Source of the DNA: Myxococcaceae bacterium
GTDB taxonomy: Bacteria > Myxococcota > Myxococcia > Myxococcales > UBA5297
DNA length: 64,000 nt
Assembly (NCBI GenBank): GCA_017500825.1
Contig: JAFVYB010000030.1
Coordinates: forward strand, 1-64,000
Reading direction: 5' to 3'
Shown here: positions 9,373 through 14,591 of the stretch, piece by piece
Numbering within the stretch: the first letter of the stretch is position 1
Layout: every line of letters begins with the position of its first letter
Program-made: the position numbers and the translations under genes
The notes under the pieces: generated by a model
Database searches by the model: none
Seen by the model: the letters and a program-made list of their open reading frames with translations, nothing else
What the model was told of the DNA's origin: nothing

Positions 9373-9903
9373 ATGACCACCCGCCAGAGACATCGCCACG
9401 CCGCCCTTGCCCTGTGCGCCCTCATTGCGAACGCTGCCTGCCTCGTGACCGAGACCATCGAGGTCCAGGAGGAGCAGCCGACTCCGGCCAACACACCGCC
9501 GCGCATCCACGAGGAGAGCGCCTCGCCCGCCAACGGCAGTGTCATCGAGCCCACGTCGTGCGCCCTGCAGCTGTCGATCGGCGTTGTCGAAGAATGGGAC
9601 GCTTCCGACGAACTGACGGCGCGCTGGTTTGTCGACGAGGCCTTGCTCGCCTCTTCGCGTCTGCCGCCCCAGGACGATCCACTGCGCGAGGGGCCCCGCT
9701 ACACCTTTGAAGTCGCCCGCCACGTGCCCGGACCACACGCCGTGCTCGTCGCCATCAGCGACGGCTTTGCCGACGGCGACGATCTGCGCGCCGCCAGGGA
9801 GGGAAAGGCCGTCGTCAGCTACGAATGGGTCCTCGACACCTCGGCCGCGACCGCGTGCGTCGACCAGCCGGAGTCTTCGGATGAACCAACAGACACCCCC
9901 TGA
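9373..9903 (+). CDS. Predicted lipoprotein, unknown function
   Basis: A 176-residue protein with a short N-terminal hydrophobic segment and a lipobox-like ALIANAAC, so it is likely lipidated at Cys 21 or so and anchored in the envelope. The mature part contains a Pro/Glu linker (EEQPTPANTPPRIHEE) and a beta-rich region with TARWFVDEALLASS and PHAVLVAISDGF, which may be an Ig-like or PKD-like fold of the kind used as spacer domains. A run of nine C (9350-9358) lies in its leader. Its last 23 bases overlap the start of the next gene, so the two are probably co-translated. Confidence 0.6.
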   Translation: MTTRQRHRHAALALCALIANAACLVTETIEVQEEQPTPANTPPRIHEESASPANGSVIEPTSCALQLSIGVVEEWDASDELTARWFVDEALLASSRLPPQDDPLREGPRYTFEVARHVPGPHAVLVAISDGFADGDDLRAAREGKAVVSYEWVLDTSAATACVDQPESSDEPTDTP

Positions 9904-10753
9904 GGAAGGCGCCGCGACCGACGGTGAACCCAGTGGCGCGCCAGTTTCCAGACATGCGGCCGCCATGGATTCGACAAAACGTTCGGCCCAGAGCGCGACA
10001 GATGAGGCCGCCAAGTCCGAGGTGAACGCGCCCGGTGGTGACGGTCGATCCGCGATTTTCCTCTTTCTCCTCGGCGTTCCCCTGGCCATCGGCGCAGCCG
10101 TCTTTGCCTTCAAGGACGCCGACGAGCCCACCGCCACCGCCGCTGTCTCTTCGCCCGCCGTCGCGGCCAGAACTGGCGAAGCAGGCGAATCGAGCTGGCT
10201 CAAACGCGCCAGCGCGCGGGGGGAAAACGCCTCCCTGGAGGAGCGGCTGTCCTTTGCCCAACGCGACGACGCGCTCACGCCCATCGAACCCTTCCGCTCG
10301 ATTCAGGCGCCGCCGGACGCCGACGAACCCATGCCGCTGCAGAGCTGGTCGAGCGGCGCGCCCAAAATCCTCGCCCGCGAATGGAGCGACGCGGGCGCCG
10401 CCATTGAGGAGCAATGCTTCTTCTCGCCCGACGAAAAACCTCTCGGCTGCGGCGTCCTGCGCGAGGGCGAGCGATGGGAGGGCGTCTTCGTCCAGTGGGC
10501 AACGCCACCCGGCAAACCCTTCGCCGAGGCCAGCGTGCTGCGCGAAATCGTCTCGTATCGAGAGGGACAGAAAGACGGCCTCGCCCGCGCCTACCGCTTT
10601 GACGGAACGCCCATGCTCGAAACGCTCTTTCGCGAGGGGCGCCAAGTCTCCAAGCGCGTCTTCCGCCAGGGCAACAACGAAATCATCGAACTGGGCGCCA
10701 AACGGCTCAAAGGCCTGCCCGTCTCCCGCCGCACGCGAAACACCGACAACTGA
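9881..10753 (+). CDS. Single-pass membrane protein with MORN-like extracytoplasmic part
   Basis: A 290-residue protein. A polar N-terminus of about 55 residues precedes one membrane helix (AIFLFLLGVPLAIGAAVFAF). The remainder is extracytoplasmic and includes EIVSYREGQKDGLARAYRFDG and ETLFREGRQ, which resemble the repeated G-x-x-E-R-Y-Y-x-N-G units of MORN/toxin-antitoxin-like beta repeats, although only one or two units are visible. No catalytic motif is seen. It begins inside the preceding lipoprotein gene (23-base overlap), which suggests the two products work together in the envelope. Confidence 0.55.
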   Translation: MNQQTPPEEGAATDGEPSGAPVSRHAAAMDSTKRSAQSATDEAAKSEVNAPGGDGRSAIFLFLLGVPLAIGAAVFAFKDADEPTATAAVSSPAVAARTGEAGESSWLKRASARGENASLEERLSFAQRDDALTPIEPFRSIQAPPDADEPMPLQSWSSGAPKILAREWSDAGAAIEEQCFFSPDEKPLGCGVLREGERWEGVFVQWATPPGKPFAEASVLREIVSYREGQKDGLARAYRFDGTPMLETLFREGRQVSKRVFRQGNNEIIELGAKRLKGLPVSRRTRNTDN

Positions 10754-10833: not shown

Positions 10834-12570
10834 ATGAAGGCCGACCGCCGCATCCGAACCTCGCTCATCTCCATCGCCGCCGACATCGCCCTCATCTCGG
10901 GCAAGGCGCTCCTCGGGCTCTTCACCGGAAGCGTGGCGCTCGTCGCCGACGCCATGCACAGCGCCTCCGACCTGGGCGTCTCGTTCATCGTCCTGATGGG
11001 GCTCCTCTTCCGCCGCCGCGTGGAGTCGCGCGAAGGCGACGCGGGCCGCGAAAAACGCCTGTGCCGCATCGAAGCCGGCCTGGCCTACGCCGTCGCCTGC
11101 CTCATCCTCTACGCGCCCTACGAGATCGCCTCGACGCTGCTGACGCGAAAGAGCGCCCCCATCGACAACCTGGGCGTGGGCATCGCCGGCATCCTCGCCT
11201 GCATCGCCCTGACCGGCTTCATCGCCCGCCTCAAACTCCAGGTCGGCCGCGACACCGGCTCCGCCGCCCTCACCGCCGACGGCTACCACTCCAGCACCGA
11301 CCTCTTCAGCTCGATCGCCGTCCTCTTCGCCGTGATGGGCGACGCCATCGGCATCCGCCTCGATCCGATCGTCGCCGGCCTCATCGCCATCCTCATCGGC
11401 GTCACCGGCATCGAGCTCTTCGTGGCCTCGACCCGTGCCCTGATTCGCGGCGAGCCGCTCAGGACAGACGACTTGGGAGAATTCCTCCTGCGCGCCTGGC
11501 GCCGAATCTGGTCCGGACCCGCCAACGCAGAGAACGCCTCGCGCGACAACGACGCCGACGCCCCCGCGACATCGCCCAGAAGGCACCAAAAGCCGCTCCG
11601 CCAGAGAATCCTCGCCGCCCTCGCCCATCTGCGCCCCAGGCATCCGCGCCGCTTCGCCCTTGGCTGCGCCGCCACCGTTCTCCTCGCTTGGCTCGCCACC
11701 GGCGTCACCGCCATCAACCCGGAGGAAACAGGTGTCCGCCTGCGCTTTGGCCGCATCGTCGGCAGCGAGATGAAGCCCGGCCTGCACCTGACACTGCCCT
11801 GGCCCTTCGAAACGGTCGCGCGCGTGCGCTCCGGCGAGATCCGCCGCGTCGAAATCGGCTTTCGCACCGCCCGTGACGGCAAGCGCAACCGCCTCTTTGA
11901 CGAATCGCTCTTCATCGCCGGCGACGAGAGCCTGGTCGACCTCAACCTCGTCGTTCACTACCGCACGCCCAACGCGCTCACCGCCCTCGTCCGCGCACGC
12001 TCGAACGACGAACTGGTCCGCGCCCTCGCCGAAGCCTCTGTGCGCGAAGTGCTGGCCACCGAGACGACCGACGCCGTCCTGACGCAGGAGCAGCCGCGCA
12101 TCCTGGCCCGCGTCGAGACGCGACTGCGCGAGGACTTCGAAGCGCTCCAACTTGACCTGAGCCTCGTCGACCTCCTGTTGACCGAGGCGCGTCCGCCGAC
12201 CGCCGTGACGCAGGCCTTCCGCGACGTGTTCTCGGCCCGCGAAGACCAGATCAAGGCCCTCCAGCAGGCAGAGGCGCGACGCAACGACGCCATTCCCAAG
12301 GCCCGCGCCGAGAGCGTCGTCTACATCAGCGAGGCGACCTCATTCGCCCTCGACAAACGCCTGCGCGCCGAGGGTGACGCCGAGCGCTTCCGACTCGAAT
12401 CAGCCGCCTGGAAGCTCTCCCCCGAAGTGACGAGCTACCGACTGTTCATCGAGACCGTCGAGAAGGGCCTGGCCAACCGCAAAAAAATCGTCGCCAACCC
12501 GCGCGCCAACTTCGGCGGCTACCAGCTGTGGCTCTTTGGTCCGCAGCAGGCGCCCTTCCTCAAAAACTAG
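10834..12570 (+). CDS. Fusion of a CDF cation transporter with an HflK-like SPFH domain
   Basis: A 578-residue fusion. Residues 1-205 are the membrane part of a cation diffusion facilitator with both metal half-sites: D39/H42/D46 in ADAMHSASD and D149/H152/D156 in ADGYHSSTD. These are the residues that bind Zn, Mn or Fe in CDF exporters. The usual cytosolic CDF domain is absent. After a basic linker (220-270) there is a further membrane helix (near 275-292) and an SPFH/Band 7 domain like HflK (INPEETGVRLRFGRIV, then PGLHLTLPWPFETV) with a long coiled coil to the end. HflK/HflC form cages around the FtsH zinc protease. The next two genes are HflC and a second HflK, so this product probably joins that assembly. 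Confidence 0.85.
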   Translation: MKADRRIRTSLISIAADIALISGKALLGLFTGSVALVADAMHSASDLGVSFIVLMGLLFRRRVESREGDAGREKRLCRIEAGLAYAVACLILYAPYEIASTLLTRKSAPIDNLGVGIAGILACIALTGFIARLKLQVGRDTGSAALTADGYHSSTDLFSSIAVLFAVMGDAIGIRLDPIVAGLIAILIGVTGIELFVASTRALIRGEPLRTDDLGEFLLRAWRRIWSGPANAENASRDNDADAPATSPRRHQKPLRQRILAALAHLRPRHPRRFALGCAATVLLAWLATGVTAINPEETGVRLRFGRIVGSEMKPGLHLTLPWPFETVARVRSGEIRRVEIGFRTARDGKRNRLFDESLFIAGDESLVDLNLVVHYRTPNALTALVRARSNDELVRALAEASVREVLATETTDAVLTQEQPRILARVETRLREDFEALQLDLSLVDLLLTEARPPTAVTQAFRDVFSAREDQIKALQQAEARRNDAIPKARAESVVYISEATSFALDKRLRAEGDAERFRLESAAWKLSPEVTSYRLFIETVEKGLANRKKIVANPRANFGGYQLWLFGPQQAPFLKN

Positions 12571-12603
12571 GCGCCCGCCGTCCGCGATTCGGAGTCCTCC
12601 ACC

Positions 12604-13491
12604 ATGAAAAAACTCCTCCTCGTCCTCGGCCTCCTCCTCCTTGTCGGCTACGTCGCCGCCACCGCCTTCCTCTCCGTGCGCGAGACGGAATGGGTCGTGA
12701 TCACCCAGTTCGGTCGCCCCGAGCGGGTCATCGAGCGCGCCGGCCTCGCCCTCAAGCTGCCCGATCCCTTCCAGACGGCCATCCGCATCGACAAGCGCCT
12801 GCAACCGCTCGACACCGCCGTCCGCGAGTATCTGACGCAGGACAAAAAGAACCTGATGCTCGGCGCCTTCCTCGTCTGGCGCGTCCAGGAGCCCATGCGC
12901 TTCATCCAGAGCGTGCGCACGATCACCGCCGCCGAACAGCGCCTGACCGACCTGGCCGCCTCTGAACTCGGCTCCGCCGTCGGCTCCTACCCGCTCTCCG
13001 ACTACCTCTCGCTCGACGAGAAGGGCTCGAAGCTGCGCGCCATGACCGAGGAAGTGACGCTCAAGTGCCGTCAACAGGCGCTCGCCGAATTCGGCATCGA
13101 GGTGATGTCGGTGCGGCTGAGGCGCTTTGGCTTCCCCGAGCAGAACCTTCAGTCGGTCTACAGCCGCATGCGCGCCGAGCGCGAACGCATCGCCAAGAAG
13201 TATCGCGCCGAAGGCGAGGAGGAGGCTTCCAACCTGCGCTCCGAGACCGAGAAGGAGGTCCGCGAGCTCCTCGCCACGGCCTACCGCGAAGCCCAGATCC
13301 TGCGCGGCAAGGGCGACGCCGAGGCCATCCGCATCTACGCCGAGGCCTTCGAGCAGGACCCCGGCTACTACAAGATGACGCGCACGCTTCAGGCCTATCA
13401 GCGCTTCCTCGACAGCGACACGACGCTCGTCCTCTCGACGGATTCGCCGCTCTTTCGCTACCTCGAAGCCCCGCCGGAGGTGACGCCATGA
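12604..13491 (+). CDS. hflC: FtsH-modulating SPFH protein HflC
   Basis: A 295-residue protein with an N-terminal signal anchor (LLLVLGLLLLVGYVAATAFL). An SPFH domain follows (ETEWVVITQFGRPERVI, GLALKLPDPFQTAIRIDKRLQPLD) and then the coiled coil typical of HflC (YSRMRAERERIAKKYRAEG, RGKGDAEAIRIYAEAF, YYKMTRTLQAYQRFL). HflC alternates with HflK in a large periplasmic/membrane cage that encloses FtsH and limits its access to membrane substrates. It lies 33 bases after the CDF-HflK fusion and shares an ATGA overlap with the following hflK, so the three genes form one operon. Confidence 0.93.
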   Translation: MKKLLLVLGLLLLVGYVAATAFLSVRETEWVVITQFGRPERVIERAGLALKLPDPFQTAIRIDKRLQPLDTAVREYLTQDKKNLMLGAFLVWRVQEPMRFIQSVRTITAAEQRLTDLAASELGSAVGSYPLSDYLSLDEKGSKLRAMTEEVTLKCRQQALAEFGIEVMSVRLRRFGFPEQNLQSVYSRMRAERERIAKKYRAEGEEEASNLRSETEKEVRELLATAYREAQILRGKGDAEAIRIYAEAFEQDPGYYKMTRTLQAYQRFLDSDTTLVLSTDSPLFRYLEAPPEVTP

Positions 13492-14591
13492 GGGCGGAGG
13501 AAAGCGGCGCGGCCCAGACGGCGAGCGACGAGATGGCGGCCGAGACCGCGACAGGCGAAGCGGCTGCGGGCGAACAGCCCCCGGCGAACGCCGACATCGG
13601 GCGGGAAGACGCGGCGTCAGGGACACCGTCCCAGCCAAATCCCGAACCGCGGCGAGACGTTGACGGCGGCGATGACGAGTCTGCTGCGGACATCCGGCGC
13701 GCGCTGAAAAACGGCAAAAAGCTCGGCCTCGTCATCGGCGCGCTCGGCGTGCTGCTCTATTTGATGAGCGGCCTCTACGCGATTGAGCCGGAGCAACGCG
13801 GCGTCGTCTTCCGCTTTGGCCGCATCCTCGAAGACGAGGCGCTTCCGGGCATCCACTACCGCCTCCCCTGGCCCATCGATCGCGTCGAACGCCTGCGCAC
13901 CACCGAGGTCCGCACTCTGGAAGTGGCCTTTGATGAGCCCAAGACGCTCAAGGGCGGCGCCAGCGACGCGCTCCTCACCGGCGACGAGAACCTCGTCCTC
14001 TCGCGACTGCTCGTTCACTACACGGTCAAAGAGCCGGCCCGCTTTCTCGTGAGCACGGCAGCGCCGGAACGCCTGATGGAGCGTCTCGCGCGAGAGGTGG
14101 CGATCGTTCACTTCGCCCGCACCGGTGTCGACGAGGCGCTGACCACCGCGCGCCATGAATTGCAGCTCACCCTGCGCGACGATCTTCAGGCAGCGCTCGA
14201 CAGCCTAAATCTCGGCATCCGCGTCAGCTCCCTGCGGATCAGCACGATCGACCCGCCGAGCGCCGTGGCGACCGCCTTCAAAGATGTGGGCTCGGCCCGC
14301 GAGGACCGCCAAAAGCGCGTCGAGGAGGCCAAGGGCGAGCGCAACCGTCAGCTGCCCGAGGCGCGTGGCGAGGCCCAGCGACTGCGCAACGAGGCGAGCG
14401 CCGCGGCCCAGGAAGCCATCGAGCACGCGCGCGGCGACGCCGAGCGATTCACCAGCGCCTGGAACGAATACCGAAAGGCGCGTTCGATCACGGCGCACCG
14501 CGAATACCTGGAGTCGGTCGAGACCGTGCTGTCGCGCGTCCGCAAGATCATCGCCAACCCCGACGCGGAAGGCGTCCGGCGGCAGCCTTGA
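13488..14591 (+). CDS. hflK: FtsH-modulating SPFH protein HflK
   Basis: A 367-residue protein. About 75 acidic, low-complexity residues precede one membrane helix (LGLVIGALGVLLYLMSGLYAI) and an SPFH domain containing EPEQRGVVFRFGRILEDEAL and PGIHYRLPWPIDRVERL, a strong HflK signature. A coiled coil follows (GERNRQLPEARGEAQRLR, HARGDAERFTSAWNEY). It overlaps the hflC stop by ATGA, which points to translational coupling and a fixed HflC:HflK ratio. The operon therefore encodes two HflK-type subunits, one of them fused to a transporter, and one HflC. The canonical hflK-hflC order is reversed for this copy. Confidence 0.9.
   Translation: MRAEESGAAQTASDEMAAETATGEAAAGEQPPANADIGREDAASGTPSQPNPEPRRDVDGGDDESAADIRRALKNGKKLGLVIGALGVLLYLMSGLYAIEPEQRGVVFRFGRILEDEALPGIHYRLPWPIDRVERLRTTEVRTLEVAFDEPKTLKGGASDALLTGDENLVLSRLLVHYTVKEPARFLVSTAAPERLMERLAREVAIVHFARTGVDEALTTARHELQLTLRDDLQAALDSLNLGIRVSSLRISTIDPPSAVATAFKDVGSAREDRQKRVEEAKGERNRQLPEARGEAQRLRNEASAAAQEAIEHARGDAERFTSAWNEYRKARSITAHREYLESVETVLSRVRKIIANPDAEGVRRQP

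Follow-up and report, generated by a model that had tools for sequence, protein, structure and literature searches.

A metal transporter domain fused to an HflK-like SPFH protein in a three-gene SPFH operon of a Myxococcaceae bacterium

SPFH assemblies of the HflK/C type are known as cages around the protease FtsH. In a 64,000-nucleotide stretch of DNA from a Myxococcaceae bacterium (GenBank assembly GCA_017500825.1, contig JAFVYB010000030.1, positions 1 to 64,000; hereafter, the window), the first gene of a three-gene operon joins the membrane part of a cation diffusion facilitator (CDF) metal transporter to an HflK-like SPFH domain, and it is followed by hflC and a second hflK. Why should a metal transporter be built into such a set of proteins? 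The explanation that we favor, with somewhat better than even confidence, is that the operon encodes a metal-pump/SPFH cassette, i.e., a periplasmic assembly resembling HflK/C that is devoted to a pump of the inner membrane, here a CDF exporter of the zinc type.

Architecture of the fusion and its metal site

The fusion gene (10834-12570, forward strand) is a single uninterrupted open reading frame (ORF) with an ATG start, which codes for 578 residues with seven transmembrane (TM) helices. Pfam identifies Cation_efflux at residues 11-203 (E-value 4.5e-24; 85.8 bits, cut-off 26.6) and Band_7 at residues 294-482 (2.6e-15). The NCBIfam CDF model, TIGR01297, matches residues 8-208 with 88.7 bits, above its cut-off of 82.35, and the hflK model, TIGR01933, matches residues 293-555 with 152 bits, slightly below its cut-off of 159.4; on this score, the SPFH half is best described as HflK-like and is not assigned as an HflK orthologue. 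Among solved structures, phmmer found FieF/YiiP at residues 10-207 (3.5e-8), and sequence comparison with the PDB found E. coli HflK (7vhp) at residues 267-558 (3.3e-30). The downstream genes are hflC (12604-13491, forward strand; 295 residues; TIGR01932, 193.5 bits, cut-off 134.4), which starts 33 bases after the fusion's stop, and the second hflK (13488-14591, forward strand; 367 residues; TIGR01933, 191.5 bits, cut-off 159.4), which overlaps hflC in an ATGA. A preliminary description of this DNA, made from its letters, had read the locus as a CDF membrane half joined to an HflK-type SPFH/coiled-coil domain in an operon with these two genes. The coordinates, the intact ORF and both sets of profiles, including the CDF and SPFH searches that it had proposed, bear it out.

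Within the protein, a CDF transmembrane domain of six helices (residues ~8-205; 10855-11448), delimited by Pfam and NCBIfam, the FieF/YiiP match and low-confidence AlphaFold2 (AF2) helices, is followed by a putative cytosolic linker (residues 206-268; 11449-11637) where a CDF protein would have its C-terminal domain. Then come TM7 (residues 271-288; 11644-11697), assigned from a low-confidence AF2 helix and alignment to the TM region of E. coli HflK, and the HflK-type SPFH domain with its coiled coil (residues 294-555; 11713-12498), to which the Band_7, TIGR01933 and 7vhp matches belong. The AF2 model is poor (predicted local distance difference test score, pLDDT, 53; five sequences) and was used for helix positions only; it contains the six CDF helices, the TM7 helix and a long helix after it. 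Since residues 209-292 matched no family in the Pfam and NCBIfam scans, the cytosolic domain of CDF proteins is missing, as had been noted previously. The linker is 32-34% identical to its counterparts in congeners, versus 62-77% for both flanking domains, and its nonsynonymous divergence (dN) is 0.78-0.87, versus 0.16-0.31. Within the genus, dN/dS of the CDF domain (~0.23-0.30) resembles that of the SPFH domain, while the linker drifts. Thus, residues 206-268, matchless and fast-evolving, appear to behave as a linker is expected to.

CDF domains have six TM helices, with the N- and C-termini both cytosolic. The CDF part of the fusion would then end in the cytosol, and TM7 would carry the SPFH domain into the periplasm, as in HflK. 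This topology, which follows from family knowledge, appears geometrically sensible.

The same fusion is intact in two members of the genus, G001 (Hm464_bin50; 73% identity) and G002 (UBA1203; 65% identity), and is present in another genus of the family (G003; 46% identity, cut by a contig end). It recurs in a distant Myxococcota family, in two Planctomycetota and on one Aquibium plasmid (G341, G831, G954 and Aquibium). A frameshift or misassembly near 11450-11700, which the preliminary description had named among the findings that would refute its reading, was ruled out because the ORF is continuous and intact in independent assemblies. The order of the trio is kept in G002 and in G003, where it is spread over two contigs.

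The surroundings of the fusion vary in these relatives. A gene just upstream (9629-10753), which has no Pfam match, stands beside the fusion also in G001, G002 and G003 and is possibly one more member of the operon. In G001, the fusion now adjoins an ftsZ-ftsA-ddl-murB cluster. Another genome of the family (G004) has apparently lost the trio, since a decayed hflC fragment (L086, ~11220-11370) stands next to a homologue of the upstream gene.

The CDF domain carries an H42-S-A-S-D46 motif in TM2 (10957-10971) and an H152-S-S-T-D156 motif in TM5 (11287-11301). H42, D46, H152 and D156 are identical in all eight CDF-HflK fusions (8/8), whereas D39 is replaced by E, S or N and D149 by S or A among the same proteins. 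Because the tetrad never varies while D39 and D149 do, these residues should be read as one tetrahedral CDF site A of the HD-HD type, to which TM2 and TM5 each contribute half, and not as the two metal sites previously assigned to the protein. HD-HD sites of CDF proteins are mostly Zn-selective, with one HD-HD clade tied to iron, and CDF proteins lacking the C-terminal domain are known (PMC6465983). The residues point to an exporter domain of the zinc type, and the metal is probably Zn2+.

The invariant site also bears on a different view of the CDF part, in which it is a metal sensor gating SPFH assembly, a receptor instead of a pump. A transporter fold mounted on a scaffold could report the metal level, and an invariant metal site would suit this role. 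The protein has no known regulatory domain, and the swapping of the CDF part with an SO_0444 permease and a P1B ATPase, described below, points to pumping as the common property. We regard the sensor as very improbable.

The trio and its exchanged module

Comparison of genomes shows the trio, in which HflC and HflK come after a polytopic module fused to an SPFH domain, to be a cassette of wide distribution. The observation that this operon encodes three SPFH proteins instead of the usual two was correct, but three is the normal layout of the cassette and not a peculiarity of this locus. The gene order, with a polytopic N-terminal module, occurs in three Myxococcota families (f8, f11 and f27), in Clostridia and Auribacterota, in Planctomycetota within and outside Phycisphaerae, and on plasmids of Aquibium, Burkholderia, Paraburkholderia, Rhizobium and Klebsiella aerogenes. 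In Phycisphaerae, the first gene was matched in 99 of 150 genomes at E <= 0.001, mostly along much of the query. A search of the class Clostridia detected it in 1 of 46 genomes, namely the source of the query. In a scan of 399 Pseudomonadota genomes, with three candidates scored per genome, the listed matches were confined to the SPFH half; thus, the CDF-HflK fusion looks rare in this phylum.

The module itself differs among loci. A CDF domain with an intact site is present at eight (window, G001, G002, G003, G341, Aquibium, G831 and G954). At 14 others, three in Myxococcota (L138, L139 and L140, family f11) and 11 in Planctomycetota (L223-L226, L229, L230, L232, L234, L236, L237 and L240), the first gene of the trio encodes an SO_0444 Cu/Zn efflux permease (SO_0444/ArsP_1) fused to HflK, with NF033936 E-values of 1e-73 to 1e-117 in those scanned. 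When Cu or Zn is in excess, growth under this stress depends on SO_0444 (PMC3219624). In one planctomycete (G945, contig C51; L227:5231-8245), a single ORF of 1005 codons encodes a P1B heavy-metal ATPase, a TM segment and HflK, and is followed by hflC and hflK; it carries the CPC, DKTGT and GDGxND motifs and matches TIGR01525 (1e-175) and TIGR01933 (4e-47). By family assignment, three unrelated metal pumps occupy the same position in the trio.

In the remaining trios, the multi-TM module has no Pfam match and lacks the HD-HD site. These site-less modules form one family (profile E-value 1.6e-23, Phycisphaerae versus the others). Their profile aligned weakly, but collinearly and over the full length, with that of CDF proteins (E-value 7e-4), whereas reversed decoys and unrelated modules gave 0.13-0.44; no signal was obtained from the five non-Phycisphaerae sequences by themselves (0.57). 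For an AF2 model of a Phycisphaerae module (pLDDT 86), the best membrane-domain matches in the PDB were CDF structures, i.e., ZnT3, YiiP, ZnT7, ZnT8, SLC30A10 and ZnT1, with probabilities up to 1.00, E-values no better than 0.026 and TM-scores of ~0.3-0.43 by query length. The site-less module is probably a CDF-like domain that has lost its metal site. On the strength of the collinear profile and the CDF-like model, we rejected the idea that the N-terminal module of Phycisphaerae, Clostridia and Proteobacteria is unrelated to CDF.

The CDF domain could be merely a membrane anchor, or a platform that binds lipid or protein, with transport lost or irrelevant. Over great divergence, many related trios have kept a CDF-like module that lacks the HD-HD site, and the missing C-terminal domain would agree with such a role. 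However, the four residues of the site are constant among the CDF-type fusions while their neighbors vary, and elsewhere pumps from other families, complete and with their motifs, have taken the place of the module. Because pumps are exchanged and the CDF site is strictly conserved, pumping appears to matter and the domain to be more than an anchor, and we consider the anchor unlikely for the fusion described here.

Two trees place these proteins, one of 62 SPFH domains and one of 79 first-gene and HflK domains. In the former, the HflC and HflK lines of the trio are separate from canonical HflC and HflK, whose clades (support 99/98 and 99/97, respectively) leave out the trio genes. The site-less trios form a cluster for each of the three genes, suggesting that these have been passed on jointly. 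The 79-domain tree has all first genes on one side, with weak support for that split, and the site-less group as one clade (98/88). CDF labels fall at three places on the SPFH tree, and at least two changes are forced by well supported branches. In their SPFH domains, the window clade and the ATPase-HflK fusion are sisters (100/98). This pattern indicates that the same SPFH chassis has borne different pumps. A single ancestral fusion limited to one genus, which we also considered, was ruled out by the three placements of CDF.

Clients of the trio: metal pumps or FtsH

The genes next to the trio offer a further view of its partners. In site-less trios outside Phycisphaerae, the next gene encodes a P1B ATPase at all 13 loci with readable downstream DNA, versus 2 of 19 such loci for fused-pump trios (Aquibium and G954); Fisher's exact test gives p = 3e-7 assuming independence, a value that overstates the evidence, as the loci are related and non-random. 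Among the Phycisphaerae trios (L032, L034 and L241-L260), an ABC transporter pair, consisting of a conserved ABC ATPase and an ABC-2-type membrane gene, is next in 21 of 22. Judged by gene content, each trio comes with a transporter, either fused or encoded next door. The fusion, the conservation of its site, the layout of the trio, the swapping of modules and the linkage to pumps are direct observations.

The preliminary description had proposed that the transporter, as part of an HflK-HflC cage around FtsH, could move Zn, Mn or Fe at the FtsH microdomain. Here, the trio would be an FtsH-modulating HflK/C cage, to whose protease the CDF part supplies or removes zinc. The SPFH domains are indeed of the HflK/HflC type, FtsH is a zinc protease that is present in congeners, and E. 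coli HflK/C surround FtsH (PMC12048511). However, the genome of the window (G000, contig C16) and G001, G002 and G004 each have a canonical hflK-hflC pair elsewhere, which branches apart from the trio. In addition, ftsH does not lie close to the trio in any genome that was checked for it, and the partners found repeatedly are metal pumps. An M41 (FtsH) domain was not detected in the window's own assembly, which is 89% complete and has probably lost it to incompleteness, and congeners have one or two. With a separate canonical pair, separate clades, no linkage to ftsH and a recurring metal-pump partner, FtsH is not supported as the client of the trio by these comparisons; we consider this role unlikely.

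If the operon is a cassette dedicated to a pump, its product would be arranged as follows. The chain would run from the CDF exporter domain through the cytosolic linker and TM7 to the periplasmic HflK-type SPFH domain and coiled coil. The fusion, its dedicated HflC and the second HflK would most likely co-assemble as an HflK/C-like periplasmic ring or dome, with the pump held inside the patch of membrane that the ring encloses, or at the wall of this patch. Metal leaving the cytosol, probably Zn2+, would enter a scaffolded periplasmic zone and not the open periplasm. In relatives, the scaffold would bear an SO_0444 permease or a P1B ATPase, or else a site-less CDF-like domain accompanied by a separate, co-encoded pump. 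Candidate uses of the enclosure, among which sequence alone does not discriminate, include stabilization of a CDF protein without its dimerizing domain, delivery of metal to a periplasmic acceptor, and prevention of back-flow. What we infer is transport, the identity of the metal, co-assembly, and the dome together with what it is for.

More tentatively, and with confidence somewhat short of even, the trio may be a general and so far unrecognized type of machine, in which a dedicated cage of three SPFH proteins serves a metal pump and not a protease. Such pumps (CDF, SO_0444 or P1B), exchanged by fusion to the HflK-like subunit, would create a compartment for metal handling at the periplasmic face of the inner membrane.

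Several observations weigh against a pump-dedicated scaffold. Dimerization of CDF proteins normally runs largely via the C-terminal domain, which the fusion lacks. Many trios have a site-less module, for which an anchor role is possible. The Phycisphaerae partner is an ABC-2-type transporter and not evidently a metal pump. In several P1B neighbors of site-less trios (L228, L231, L233, L238, L239 and L085), the CPC of TM6 is replaced by CPG, CPS, CPT or TPT, and the metal of these ATPases may differ. In G001, the fusion and hflC-hflK lie on separate contigs (L079 and L080), so the gene order expected in close relatives holds in G002 and G003 but not there. CDF and SO_0444 proteins export, whereas the Pseudomonas aeruginosa pump HmtA, induced at low zinc, is described as an importer (PMC8456098), and the direction of pumping may differ among the cassettes. 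Finally, deletions of P. aeruginosa SPFH genes, including PA2437-2439, gave slight phenotypes in assays whose list does not include metal stress (PMC13086221).

Relation to known systems

In a literature search of open-licence papers, no fusion of a CDF, SO_0444 or P1B pump to an SPFH protein was found to be described. The components are known, but their covalent combination and the rule of the cassette appear to be new. Our comparisons suggest the existence in bacteria of a scaffold system that is devoted to metal pumps and not to the usual protease. Pumps that are covalently tied or gene-linked to an SPFH trio offer a testable case of SPFH scaffolds acting on transporters, and the fusion is a stoichiometric construct suited to structural work.

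Among related systems, the SO_0444 Cu/Zn efflux permease, which belongs to a different family and is not encoded in the window, takes the same N-terminal position in sister cassettes. The CDF exporters YiiP/FieF and ZnT share with the fusion the six-TM domain with a tetrahedral HD-HD site A; the fusion differs in lacking the cytosolic C-terminal domain and in the addition of TM7 and the SPFH domain. The E. coli HflK/HflC-FtsH system has the same SPFH domain and coiled coil, and in its periplasmic cage 24 HflK and HflC subunits alternate (PMC12048511). In contrast, the operon of the window has three SPFH genes, one of them fused to a pump, and these fall in separate clades and have no link to ftsH.

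The closest parallel is the P. aeruginosa locus PA2439-PA2438-PA2437 (PaFlo5-7) with hmtA (PA2435), which, like the operon of the window, has three consecutive SPFH genes (annotated as HflK, HflC and HflC-family) and a metal pump, in this case a P1B ATPase. The three genes form one predicted operon (PMC13086221) and are upregulated 9-14 fold upon Zn depletion (PMC4542158), and Zur binds the promoter of the first gene of the locus, which contains hmtA, in a zinc-dependent manner (PMC8531726). There, the pump has a gene of its own and is described as an importer, and no transporter fusion has been reported; PA2439 is considered here by its description alone. The order of first SPFH gene, HflC and third SPFH gene, and a metal pump, here the fused CDF, are found in both, and the cassette hints at why P. 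aeruginosa has an SPFH trio under the control of Zur.

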